64,000 nucleotides of DNA, taken from contig JAMCWM010000015.1 in NCBI GenBank assembly GCA_023481175.1, positions 1-64,000 on the forward strand. Reading direction: 5' to 3'. The first letter of the stretch is position 1. Each line of letters opens with the position of its first letter. The notes below the pieces were generated by a model. The model did not search any database. It worked only from the letters and a program-made list of their open reading frames with translations, and was not told where the DNA came from. This document shows positions 52,698 to 63,061 of this stretch, one piece after another. A program made the translations under genes and the position numbers. Source of the stretch: Nitrospirota bacterium (GTDB lineage Bacteria; Nitrospirota; Leptospirillia; Leptospirillales; Leptospirillaceae).

Positions 52698-53015
52698 ATG
52701 AAAAAACTGGGATCCGTTGTCGGTTCTCTTGCTGCACTCATCTTTTCCTTTTCTCTTGTAGCCGCCCCGGTGTCCTTTGCCGCAGATGCCTCCGCTCCGG
52801 CCGCCGCCACCGCGCCTGCCGCGACACCGGCAGCTCCGGCCAAGCACAAGGCGCACAAGAAGATGCACCACAAGCGCCACTGGAGACACCATCGCTGCAA
52901 CCACCACTCCAAGTACTACAAGCGCCATCACCGCTGCTACCCGCATCACAAGAAGCATCATCACATGAAGCACCACATGAAGAAGCACCACAAGAAACAC
53001 CACGCGGCGAACTAA
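52698..53015 (+). CDS. small exported histidine/lysine-rich protein
   Basis: A 105-residue protein with a clear signal peptide (to about 'LVAAPVSFAA'), an Ala/Pro-rich stretch (28-50) and a C-terminal half made almost only of His, Lys, Arg and Tyr. I count 22 His in the last 57 residues, often as HH or HHH, plus two Cys. Such tracts bind Ni2+, Zn2+, Cu2+ or Fe ions, or counter acid; a periplasmic metal buffer is an inference. ATG 52698 has AAGGAG upstream. It is followed by a strong terminator and is a single-gene unit. I know no named family. Confidence 0.75.
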   Translation: MKKLGSVVGSLAALIFSFSLVAAPVSFAADASAPAAATAPAATPAAPAKHKAHKKMHHKRHWRHHRCNHHSKYYKRHHRCYPHHKKHHHMKHHMKKHHKKHHAAN

Positions 53016-53050
53016 AAAAAAAGCCGGAGTCGAAAGACTCCGGCCTTTTC
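53014..53050. terminator. strong bidirectional terminator
   Basis: GCCGGAGTC (53023-53031), loop GAAA, GACTCCGGC (53036-53044), then CTTTTCT on the plus strand and a preceding run of nine A that serves as a T run on the minus strand. It ends both the His-rich gene and the efflux-rnhA operon transcribed towards it. Confidence 0.9.
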
Positions 53051-58810: not shown

Positions 58811-58828
58811 ATTGATTAACCAATCAAT
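58811..58828. promoter_or_regulatory. TetR operator palindrome
   Basis: A perfect inverted repeat, ATTGATT (58811-58817), AACC, AATCAAT (58822-58828), sits 17 bases before the tetR start and covers the predicted transcription start. Length and symmetry suit a TetR dimer. Binding is inferred. Confidence 0.65.
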
Positions 58829-58972: not shown

Positions 58973-60340
58973 TTGAGACCCATTCTTCCGCCTCTCCCCT
59001 TTCCAGAGCCCCATACAGGAAGCTGCACCCTGGCCCCCCGTCCGAGGGTGGGTCTTTCCACCGATCTTTACTCCCCTCCTCTCGAGGATCTTCTGGACGT
59101 TCTGTCGAGCGGTCCCGCCCCTGAATATCTCGAGCTCTTCCGGGGAAGAACCTCCGATCTGGCGGAGGCCCGACGGAGAATTCCCGCCGGGATCCCCCTG
59201 ACCTACCACGGAGACTGCCTCTGGTACACGCAGGCCGAATTTCCCTTCGATCCGGCCTACCGGGAGGAGATGCAGCGGGCCAGAGCCCACTTGGAGGCCC
59301 TGGACTCCCCCTGGATGATCCACGAATGTGCCCAGAAGACGATGGAAGGATACGCCTTCGGGCTGTATGCCCCTCCCCTGCTCACGCGGGAAGGCGCCCT
59401 GGCGGCGCGGAGGGGAGCCCTCCACCTCCAGGAGAACCTTGGGGGACGTCTTCTGCTCGTCGAGACGCCCCCCTTTCCCCCTCATCCCACCGGCCCCATG
59501 GACCTTGGGGAGTTTTTCCACCTTCTGACCTGCGACACCCCCCTCGGGGTCGGACTCGATCTCGGCCACTGCCTCACCTATCTCATGGTGGCGGGACGCC
59601 CGGCCACGCCCTCTTCTCTCGTGGAGTGGCTTAGGAGCTCCTTTCCCTTGGGCCGGGTGGTCGAAATCCATGTGGGAGGGTTGACCACACGGAATTTTTC
59701 CACCCTTCAGGCTCTCGTCGACGACCATGCCGAAACCGTCCCGGATCTGCTGTTCGACTGCCTCGAGTCGGTCCTTCGGGAGCTGCCGCTTCCGTCCCTG
59801 GCGGGAATCGCCCTGGAGGTCGACAACAAGGCGCTTGGCACGATCGCACGGGAATTCGCCCGGTTCCATGAAATCGTCCTCCGGGAGGCCCGTCCGGGAG
59901 GACGACCTCTTCCGCCTCCTTCCTTGGCCCCTCCGGTCGCTCTCACCCCGGAGGTCGAGGCGCGCCTGCGAAGCGGGTACCGCGCCCTGGGGCTCTCCCT
60001 GTCGGGATCCTCGGACTCCCCTTACGCCCGATCCCTGTACGGGGACGAGATCTGGTCCTTCGGAGGCGCCATGTCGGCGATCATTCCCGAAACCCTCGCC
60101 CTGCTCGAACAGAGGGGAATCGACGCCCGTTCGTCCTTCGTCTCCTATTTCAACACCCATCCGAGAAGTCTCCTGAAACCCATGGATTTTCTCGAAATCA
60201 AGCTTCTTCGCGTCTCGGAATGGATCGAGACCCTTTGCAGCAAGAGTGGTCCGTCCTTCGCTCCCGTCCGGGCGGCCGCAGAAAAAGAGGTCCGGCTTCT
60301 TCTGGACGCCCAAACCCAATACAATGGAGACCCCCTATGA
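58973..60340 (+). CDS. DUF692 / MNIO (MbnB-like) iron enzyme with C-terminal extension
   Basis: Predicted multinuclear non-haem iron oxidative enzyme with a TIM-barrel, 455 residues; simple members have about 280-300. Relatives modify Cys or Asp in ribosomal peptides, for example MbnB in methanobactin. Candidate metal ligands are H79 (TYHGD), H117/E118, E164, D196 and H199 (GLDLGHC), H233 (EIHVGG), D251/H252 (VDDHAETV) and E282 (LEVDNKA). Residues about 310-455 form an extra domain I cannot name ('YGDEIWSFGGAMSAIIPE', 'YFNTHPRSLLKPMDFLEI'), perhaps a fused partner protein. The TTG start is uncertain. The stop overlaps the lipoprotein start (ATGA). Confidence 0.72.
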   Translation: MRPILPPLPFPEPHTGSCTLAPRPRVGLSTDLYSPPLEDLLDVLSSGPAPEYLELFRGRTSDLAEARRRIPAGIPLTYHGDCLWYTQAEFPFDPAYREEMQRARAHLEALDSPWMIHECAQKTMEGYAFGLYAPPLLTREGALAARRGALHLQENLGGRLLLVETPPFPPHPTGPMDLGEFFHLLTCDTPLGVGLDLGHCLTYLMVAGRPATPSSLVEWLRSSFPLGRVVEIHVGGLTTRNFSTLQALVDDHAETVPDLLFDCLESVLRELPLPSLAGIALEVDNKALGTIAREFARFHEIVLREARPGGRPLPPPSLAPPVALTPEVEARLRSGYRALGLSLSGSSDSPYARSLYGDEIWSFGGAMSAIIPETLALLEQRGIDARSSFVSYFNTHPRSLLKPMDFLEIKLLRVSEWIETLCSKSGPSFAPVRAAAEKEVRLLLDAQTQYNGDPL

Positions 60341-60738
60341 GACGATCCCGCGCCCTTCTCTTTTACTCGATCATCCTCGCTCTTCCCTTTTTCCTCGGGG
60401 CCTGCCGCCACCCCCAGACCGGGCTCCCGTCCCTCGAAGGCTCGACGGCCAGCTTCCAGGGACGCGTGCTCTGGAACGGGAAGCCGATCGGAAAGGCCAC
60501 CCTTTTCCTGCGCCCCCTCTCCCGACCATCCGCCCGGGAAATCGAACTGATGACCCGGATCGACGGACGCTTCGAGGCGACCCTTCCTCCGGGGCGCTAC
60601 CGCCTCCGCACCTCCCCCACGACCATGTGCCCCGTCAGGGGGGTGATCACCCTTTCGCCGGGCGTCAACCGATACCGGCTCGTGGTCCACGCCCTTTCCT
60701 TTCTGACCTGCCGGCCGGGAGAAATCCGGAAGCTCTGA
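60337..60738 (+). CDS. small lipoprotein with carboxypeptidase-regulatory-like domain
   Basis: A 133-residue exported protein with lipobox LGAC (lipidated C23) and a single beta-sandwich domain of the CarboxypepD_reg type ('FQGRVLWNGKPIGKATLFLRP', 'TRIDGRFEATLPPGRYRLR'). Two further cysteines, C98 and C125, lie near the C-terminus. It is translationally coupled to the DUF692 gene (ATGA overlap), so it may be its substrate or partner; this is inference. Sandwich lipoproteins often bind other envelope proteins. No RiPP-like leader is visible. Confidence 0.7.
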   Translation: MRRSRALLFYSIILALPFFLGACRHPQTGLPSLEGSTASFQGRVLWNGKPIGKATLFLRPLSRPSAREIELMTRIDGRFEATLPPGRYRLRTSPTTMCPVRGVITLSPGVNRYRLVVHALSFLTCRPGEIRKL

Positions 60739-60855: not shown

Positions 60856-61959
60856 ATGGGACTTTTCGGACGTCCGTCCGCCCAGCCAGGCCGAACCGGC
60901 GACCAGACGAACCCTTCCCCGGAGAGGATCCGCGAAACGGAAGAGCTCGCAGCCCGCGCCCGGAGGGCCGAGGAGACGGCCAGCGCCGCACGCCTCGAGG
61001 CTGAAAACACGAAAAAGATGATGGAATTCACCCGGTCGGTCCTCACCCACGTCAAGGACTTCGGAGAGTCGATCTTCACCGTTCGGAACTCTCTCGTCTC
61101 GCTTTCGGAAACCATGAGCCGGGAGCGGAGTGCCATGGACGAGACGGACCGGATGGCCATCCAGGCCGCGGGGACCGTCGACAGCATCTCGAGCAATATG
61201 GAAAAGATGTCGAGCGCCTCCCAAACCGCGGCCCGTGAGGTGGAGGGGCTCTCGGAACGAGCCGGCCAGATCGGAGCGATCGTGAACGCCATCCGGGAGA
61301 TTGCGGACCAGACGAACCTTCTGGCCTTGAACGCCGCCATCGAATCCGCCCGGGCGGGGGAGCAGGGACGGGGGTTCGCCGTCGTCGCCGACGAAGTCAG
61401 GAAGCTTGCCAGCCGGACTTCGGCCGCCACCCAGGAGATCTCGTCCATCGTCAATGCGATCCAGGGGGCGACCCAGTCGGCCAAGGTCGCCATGATGGCC
61501 CTCTCCGAACAGTCTTCGGCCCTCTTCTCGGCCGGAACCGGCGCCTCCCGGAGCATGCAGGACATGGTGGCGCAGTTCAAGAAGATGGAGGGCTCCATCG
61601 AGGGGTCGGCCCTCAAGGGATTTCTCGAGGTCGTCAAGATGGATCACCTGGTCTACAAGTTCGAGGTCTACCAGGTCCTCTTCGGACTTTCCGACAAGAA
61701 GGCGGAGTCCTTTTCGAGCCACCGGACCTGTCGCCTGGGGAAATGGTACTACGAGGGAGAGGGGCGCAAGCTCTCGGACAGGCCGCCGTTTCGGGATCTG
61801 GAGCGGCCACACGAGGAGGTTCACCGCTCCGGACAGGAGGCGGTGGCGAGGTTCGTCGAAAACCGGTTCGAGGAGGCCCTCGCGGCGCTCAAGGTCATGG
61901 ACAGGGCGAGCCAGGAGGTTCTCGAACAGCTTGAGCGGCTGGGCGCAGGGGGAACATAG
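60856..61959 (+). CDS. cytoplasmic chemoreceptor with CZB zinc-binding domain
   Basis: Soluble MCP of 367 residues without membrane segments. Residues 20-60 are a coiled coil, and 60-250 are the MCP signalling region with its tip at about 150-185 ([35 protein letters not shown]). Residues 255-335 are a CZB domain with all four zinc ligands: H264, C292 ([12 protein letters not shown]), H319 and H323. CZB domains sense zinc, pH or oxidants such as HOCl via the reactive Cys. AGGAGG lies ten bases before ATG 60856. It is followed by the CheZ-like gene, so signal input and phosphatase are adjacent. Confidence 0.9.
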
Positions 61960-62056
61960 GCCCTTTGCCCGGCCGGGTCGATTCTCGTCCGGAGGCTTTC
62001 CCCTTTTTCCCAATTATGCTACCTTAGGCCCATTGCGAGTCACGACCTATTCAAGG

Positions 62057-63061
62057 ATGTCAGGGATTAACGGCCAGACAAAGACAGAAAAGAAGATTCC
62101 GATGCAGATCATGACCTTTCCCCTCTCCCGGGAAGTGGACCTCGGCATCCGGATGACCGAGATCAGGCGGATCGAAACTCTCAGGGAAAACAGCGACCCG
62201 GGTGAGGCGCGACTGTTTTTTCCCCACGACTGGTTCGACCTGCCCCGTCCCGACAAGTTGACCGGACTCAAGGGAATCTTTCTCTCGTCATACCGCGAGG
62301 CCCTGATCGCCGTCCCGAGGATCGGCCGCATCCTCCGCCTCGCAGACCCAAGCCTTTCGGGGACCCTCCACGCGGACCATTCCTTCCTTTCGAAACACAA
62401 AACCGTCGAAGGGCCCGAGTTCTGGGTGCTGGACATTCCCCTCCTTCGCAATCAGTTTTCCGGGGAGGGACCGGCCGTCCCGGCTCCGGACAGGCAGACG
62501 GGAGAAGCCTCGGAACTTTTCCAGCAGATGGGGCAGACCGCCCGGGACATCCAACGCGTCCTTTCCCTGTCGTCCTCCATGGTCGACTCGCTCAAATTCA
62601 TGGAGGGAAAGCTCCCGGAGACCTCCCAGGGTCTGGGCGTCATCAGCCAGATGACGGAGGATGCGGCCCACAAGCTCATGAACATTCTGGAGAGCCTCCT
62701 GGAGGATCACAACCAGATCCGGGCCATTGCCCAGTCGAAGGACGGACCCTCCCCCGACCGGATCGCCGGGATTCTCGACGAAGCCGACGAGAGGATCATG
62801 CACGGCTTCGAGGCCATGGCCTTTCAGGACCTTGTCGGACAGAACATCAAACTGATCGGAAGCCATCTGAAGGAGCTCGAGTCCCGACTGGTGCGGATCC
62901 TCATCGAGACCTCCCCCGAAGCGCACCGGAGCAGCGATGAATCCGGGACCTCGTCTTCCGCGGCGACTCCCCCTTCGACCCCGACCCTCAAGGGCGTGGG
63001 AGCCCATGGAGACATCGACCAGAACACCGTCGACCAGCTCCTGTCGGAATTCGGATTTTAG
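62057..63061 (+). CDS. CheZ-like phosphatase with N-terminal CheW-like domain
   Basis: Predicted CheY-P phosphatase, 334 residues against about 214 for E. coli CheZ. The C-terminal part has the CheZ helical hairpin with active-site D258 and Q262 (AFQDLVGQNIK). After a Ser/Thr/Pro linker comes the CheY-binding tail 'DQNTVDQLLSEFGF' (321-334). Residues about 16-135 look like a degenerate CheW-type domain ('MTFPLSREVDLGIRMTEIRRIE', split here by strands; 'EALIAVPRIGRILRLADP'; 'EFWVLDIPLL'), which could dock it to receptor arrays; this is inference. Starts ATG 62057 or 62102, both with weak ribosome sites. Confidence 0.72.
   Translation: MSGINGQTKTEKKIPMQIMTFPLSREVDLGIRMTEIRRIETLRENSDPGEARLFFPHDWFDLPRPDKLTGLKGIFLSSYREALIAVPRIGRILRLADPSLSGTLHADHSFLSKHKTVEGPEFWVLDIPLLRNQFSGEGPAVPAPDRQTGEASELFQQMGQTARDIQRVLSLSSSMVDSLKFMEGKLPETSQGLGVISQMTEDAAHKLMNILESLLEDHNQIRAIAQSKDGPSPDRIAGILDEADERIMHGFEAMAFQDLVGQNIKLIGSHLKELESRLVRILIETSPEAHRSSDESGTSSSAATPPSTPTLKGVGAHGDIDQNTVDQLLSEFGF

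Follow-up and report, generated by a model that had tools for sequence, protein, structure and literature searches.

Gene organization of the locus

The window, that is, the whole 64,000-nt stretch of Leptospirillaceae DNA analysed here, carries an enzyme gene of the MNIO (DUF692) type that runs directly into a lipoprotein gene, and ORF calling confirmed both genes of 58973-60738 at the coordinates given by the first-pass annotation. The features discussed below are as follows.

58973-60340, + strand: long MNIO (DUF692) enzyme of 455 aa, TTG start (from ORF, Pfam, fold model and alignment)
60337-60738, + strand: lipoprotein of 133 aa with a transthyretin-like (CarboxypepD_reg) domain, ATG start; lipobox Cys23, invariant C98 and C125
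58901-58909, + strand: candidate extended -10 (TGCTATACT) of the MNIO-lipoprotein operon, from the upstream regions of five related loci compared by eye
58812-58827, no strand assigned: conserved palindrome TTGATTAACCAATCAA between the TetR and MNIO genes, from upstream sequence comparison
52698-53015, + strand: exported small protein, rich in His and with two Cys (CNHHSKYYKRHHRCYP), a further candidate for the substrate; its gene adjoins the MNIO gene in a sister genus

The stop codon of the MNIO gene and the start codon of the lipoprotein gene share 4 nt (ATGA). The TTG start at 58973 is uncertain: the predicted model shows residues 1-19 as disordered, and alignment with the most divergent homologues begins only at approximately residue 20. 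The operon appears to have its own promoter, with TGCTATACT as a candidate that was read by eye and whose occurrence was not counted by a scan. The palindrome TTGATTAACCAATCAA is the probable operator of the divergent TetR-cytochrome-HlyD-MFS-TolC operon, and is not clearly that of the MNIO operon. This efflux operon occurs in the window's genus only, and is not found beside the MNIO gene in sister genera or Nitrospira. Thus, because the efflux neighbours are genus-specific and probably have their own operator, a metal-efflux link of the enzyme was rejected, which counts against the metal-stress system suggested at first. On the other flank, 60856-63061 encodes a chemoreceptor with a zinc-binding CZB domain and then a CheZ-like protein, and the CheZ-like gene remains near the MNIO gene throughout the Leptospirillaceae.

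Identity of the enzyme and its predicted metal sites

The Pfam family PF05114 (MbnB_TglH_ChrH) covers residues 68-286 of the 455-aa protein with 24.9 bits (cut-off 25), and was matched by all 19 diverse aligned relatives (best E 2.7e-16; members above the cut-off were not tallied). PF05114 was not found elsewhere in the window's own genome, in a whole-genome family scan that returned no match. The AlphaFold2 model, computed from 14 aligned relatives (pLDDT 84, pTM 0.86), comprises a TIM barrel at residues ∼20–305 and a mostly helical C-terminal domain at residues ∼326–451. When the full model was compared with the PDB by Foldseek, the nine best matches were MbnB, TglH and the DUF692 structure 3bww, with a best E of 3e-12 and TM-scores up to 0.81 (by target length); the MNIO-type TIM-barrel fold is present, with 7fc0, 8hi7, 7dz9, 7tcw and 3bww as best matches, and epimerases and endonuclease IV are among the weaker ones. 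The NCBIfam equivalog cut-offs were not reached (ApyH, 37.5 of 400 bits; BufB, 22.1 of 310 bits). Hence, from the PF05114 matches of the relatives and the modelled fold, we regard as settled that the protein is a divergent MNIO/DUF692 enzyme, as the first-pass annotation had it, although no curated subfamily fits.

We aligned 41 sequences from the Leptospirillaceae, the Nitrospiraceae and a third family, and found H79, E164, D196, H199, H233, D250, H252, E282 and D284 to be invariant. The ligands listed previously (H79, E164, D196, H199, H233, H252 and E282) were therefore all invariant, and the list needs to be extended by H117 and D250, which it omitted. Position 117 is His in 39 of the 41 sequences and Gln in two (L090 and L091, both from family f18), whereas E118 and C119 do not vary. 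If residues are assigned to iron sites 1 and 2 by analogy with MbnB, as we assume here, the ligand set (H, H, E, D, H, E) consists of H79, H117, E164, D196, H233 and E282. E164 and E282 were equated with the MNIO glutamates by motif (LIEN and IEWD), because the MAFFT alignment has shifted or gapped columns at these positions. The usual SEH motif of MNIOs is changed to HEC in the long protein; the ungapped distance to the downstream proline motif is 18 residues both in BufB and here, which places H117 on the SEH histidine, and MAFFT puts E118, not H117, opposite this histidine. Thus, given the MAFFT pairing and the Gln in two sequences, the second ligand of site 1 (H117) is not certain. In HvfB, the site-3 residues are N175, D242 and H244 (PMC13419390). 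The Asp and His are retained as D250 and H252, and the Asn is replaced by His (H199) in all 41 long proteins, compared with Asn in all 18 BufB proteins fetched for comparison; one long Streptomyces MNIO likewise has His at this position.

A conserved C-terminal extension

The extension comprises approximately residues 306–455 (∼145 residues), with helices predicted from ∼326 to 451, and gave a pLDDT of 81 when folded alone. All complete copies, from Leptospirillum to Nitrospira, have it, and G364, G365, D405, K410 and E439 are invariant in the 41 aligned rows. Given its presence in all of these copies and its invariant residues, the extension is, on the sequence comparison, functional and not read-through; the ∼145 extra residues remarked on earlier are real and conserved, with five invariant positions.

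Searches for its relatives were negative. Pfam and PHROGs searches of the extension gave no match, a PDB sequence search with the extension profile gave noise only, and serpin matches from a single-sequence search were dismissed as noise. Foldseek of the extension against the PDB returned nothing significant (best E 1.6), and the MNIO partner TglI was in this list at E 7.0 with a TMq of 0.40, the highest TM-score of the list. In hhalign, comparison with 18 DUF2063 partners gave a collinear full-domain register at P = 0.1, which put DUF2063 at rank 11 of the 44 templates compared, and an equally good score was reached by 13 of 150 shuffles; a relationship to DUF2063 is thus not claimed, since the score equals that of unrelated families and shuffles. 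Residues 306–455 could be placed in the DUF2063 / PME partner domain neither by sequence nor by fold, and the RiPP-partner domain that the first-pass annotation envisaged in residues 300–455 found nothing significant in its favour in the Foldseek search or the DUF2063 profile comparison. The absence of a separate partner that its proposal implies was borne out, in that a search of 21 Leptospirillaceae genomes matched no DUF2063 gene. This absence helps the idea that the extension is a fused MNIO partner domain, which we consider a plausible hypothesis.

Distribution and inheritance of the long form

Two of the searched families, labelled f1 and f10, are taken here to be Leptospirillaceae and Nitrospiraceae, respectively. 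The Leptospirillaceae are acid-mine iron oxidisers, and relatives such as Nitrospira nitrify. The long MNIO gene was found, essentially in single copy, in 21 of 21 Leptospirillaceae genomes searched and in ∼171 Nitrospiraceae genomes, where its presence is near universal, not proven to be universal (a handful of matches are fragments, and the 58 non-matching genomes of this search were not itemised). A third family had the gene in 18 genomes, and the other Nitrospirota families sampled had no long MNIO gene apart from isolated matches in two small families. The protein tree follows the host families, which fits vertical inheritance. Because the gene is essentially single copy, near universal, in no RiPP-type cluster and follows host families, it looks like a core gene of the lineage.

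No gene neighbour of the MNIO gene is common to the families: it is accompanied by dus, maf and an exported two-Cys protein in Nitrospiraceae, by the glutamate-synthase genes gltBD in family f18, and by T2SS/CheZ genes in Leptospirillaceae. The exported protein downstream of MNIO-dus-maf in Nitrospiraceae (L053:11450-12097 and 12 other loci) is strongly conserved, has two invariant Cys and no Pfam family, and is a candidate client there. A literature search returned no full text joining DUF692 with Nitrospira.

Candidate clients in the Leptospirillaceae

Besides the Cys of its lipobox (LGAC), the coupled lipoprotein has exactly two others, C98 and C125 (contexts TTMCPVRG and SFLTCRPG), both invariant in 11 homologues, in agreement with the two-Cys lipoprotein described at first. 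In the nine loci measured, which come from three genera, the MNIO stop and lipoprotein start overlap by 1–8 nt. Of the 21 Leptospirillaceae genomes, 19 have the lipoprotein, and in the other two (G010 and G014) the contig stops inside or just past the MNIO gene. It adjoins the MNIO gene in four of five genera and lies elsewhere in the genome in genus g3, so that the synteny asked about earlier holds within the family, as does the operon. Other genera have a two-repeat lipoprotein with one Cys pair per repeat; that of g3 (L156:3897-4736) is beside a cytochrome b561-like gene, away from the MNIO gene. Among Nitrospiraceae, no detectable copy was found in any of five genomes searched, all of which have the MNIO gene. 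The functional link between enzyme and lipoprotein thus appears real within the Leptospirillaceae. Because the lipoprotein is undetected in these five Nitrospiraceae and relocated in g3, the pairing is not obligatory, and serving the lipoprotein cannot have been the enzyme's original function. The lipoprotein may be what the MNIO edits, and C98 and C125 could simply form a disulfide.

A short Cys-containing protein, which the first-pass annotation had not seen in the neighbourhood, is encoded at 52698-53015. This small exported His-rich protein has two Cys in an invariant core, CNHH[ST][KR]Y...HHxCYP, and occurs in one copy in 20 of 21 Leptospirillaceae genomes, being absent from G017, which has the enzyme. 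In 18 genomes its gene is on the same contig and strand as the MNIO gene, 0.3–7.5 kb upstream of it: ∼0.3 kb in g3, where the two are directly adjacent, ∼2 kb in g2 and g4, and 6–7.5 kb in the window's genus. A strong terminator follows the gene at 53023-53044, and the same is seen in g3; with its own terminator, the gene is predicted to be outside the MNIO operon and not co-transcribed with it. The CNHH motif was not found in the Nitrospiraceae searched, and apparent homologues from Nitrospirales were rejected, the four inspected matches being low-complexity or signal-peptide matches without the motif. The protein is possibly a metal-binding one.

Proposed role of the enzyme

We infer that the protein binds iron and is active, and that it would be a multinuclear iron oxidase/oxygenase of the MbnB/TglH/BufB superfamily. 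The C-terminal helical domain would replace the separate partner, by keeping the substrate chain in place above the iron cluster and adjusting this cluster, and an exported protein, while still a cytoplasmic precursor, would be oxidised at a residue (probably Cys) before secretion. Such an enzyme would be a vertically inherited core function of Leptospirillaceae and Nitrospiraceae and not part of a secondary-metabolite cluster, and in Leptospirillaceae the translationally coupled two-Cys lipoprotein would be the best single candidate client. We put forward this self-contained core MNIO, with its own domain as partner and an exported-protein precursor as substrate, tentatively, as a reading whose chance of being correct falls somewhat short of even.

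The near universality of the enzyme in Nitrospiraceae without the lipoprotein, the lack of an MNIO neighbour common to the families and the unlinked lipoprotein of g3 would all be expected if the same enzyme served an unlinked protein that Nitrospiraceae and Leptospirillaceae both have, and the operon had simply acquired the lipoprotein; this is somewhat unlikely in our judgement, as the overlapping gene coupling is kept in three genera with different flanks. The His-rich protein (CNHHSKYYKRHHRCYP) would, as client, yield a bufferin-like metal-binding product. Its two invariant Cys and apparent Sec signal resemble bufferin precursors, which are Sec-exported with two Cys (PMC12452194), and its occurrence in nearly every Leptospirillaceae genome, mostly upstream of the enzyme and adjacent to it in g3, is in favour of this role. 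Nevertheless its own strong terminator, its absence from G017 despite the enzyme and the lack of its motif in the Nitrospiraceae searched make it an improbable client.

A departure from peptide chemistry was also weighed, in which the protein would have a small molecule or a nucleic acid as its substrate, as other metal TIM barrels do (endonuclease IV and the sugar epimerases). Its housekeeping-like distribution without a RiPP cluster, the change of the site-3 Asn to His and the weaker PDB matches to these enzymes are consistent with such a role. However, the best MNIO structure is better by approximately five orders of magnitude in E-value, and the full MNIO ligand set and the fused domain are retained, so that we consider this unlikely. 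To return to the self-contained MNIO, the wider proposal that a core enzyme with a fused substrate-presenting domain and a His-containing third metal site oxidises an exported protein, and so serves basic physiology in iron-/nitrite-oxidising Nitrospirota and not a RiPP cluster, is doubtful when taken as a whole. Among the MNIOs, the protein is a long variant without a partner that belongs to the core of its lineage and is coupled to a lipoprotein in one family. A single-copy, partner-less long form across iron-/nitrite-oxidising Nitrospirota suggests that MNIO chemistry has a part in basic cell physiology as well. As a single chain, it also provides a system in which to study substrate holding by MNIOs and their use of the third metal site.

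Comparison with known MNIO systems

MNIOs have been known mainly from patchy peptide-product clusters and mostly depend on a separate partner. The long protein has the TIM-barrel fold and iron-ligand pattern in common with MbnB, TglH and BufB-HvfB (PF05114); unlike these, it has a fused 145-residue domain, His for Asn at site 3 and HEC for SEH, lacks a partner gene and precursor cluster, and is distributed as a core gene. Bufferin cluster genes (DUF2282 precursor, DUF2063 partner and DoxX) were absent among the MNIO neighbours scanned. It resembles MovX, an MNIO that works without a partner and bears an additional winged-helix domain (PMC12452194), in being an apparently self-contained MNIO plus an extra domain, but here the extra domain is mostly helical and matches no known domain by sequence, the host lineage is another one, and no methanobactin-like precursor was found.

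A further likeness is to the DAG-RiPPs DybA/DybH and NedABC, where an MNIO gene goes with a lipoprotein gene, as the MNIO-linked lipobox (LGAC) does here. DybA and NedA are lipoproteins shown to be MNIO-modified, and lipoprotein precursors can be MNIO substrates before export (PMC12636315); action of an MNIO on a lipoprotein, which had been thought new, is therefore already published. Compared with the DAG-RiPPs, the present lipoprotein has a transthyretin-like domain in which the two Cys are spaced, and the core motifs CPACGMG, EGKCG and CxxxxC are absent from it. The DUF692 protein WP_327348927.1 of a Streptomyces plasmid (L103) is also long (533 aa) and shares the LDIGH motif; C-terminal homology with the extension was rejected, no similarity being detectable. 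On that Streptomyces europaeiscabiei plasmid (L103:1-6693), the long DUF692 gene is beside genes for YcaO, an MBL-fold protein, a 51-aa ORF, an acyl-protein synthase and an acyl-CoA reductase, a set that looks like an undescribed RiPP-type cluster. Thus MNIO action on a lipoprotein (PMC12636315) and a partner-free MNIO with an added domain, MovX (PMC12452194), were already known, and the new features here are the setting as a core gene, the His at site 3 and a fused domain that matches no known one.
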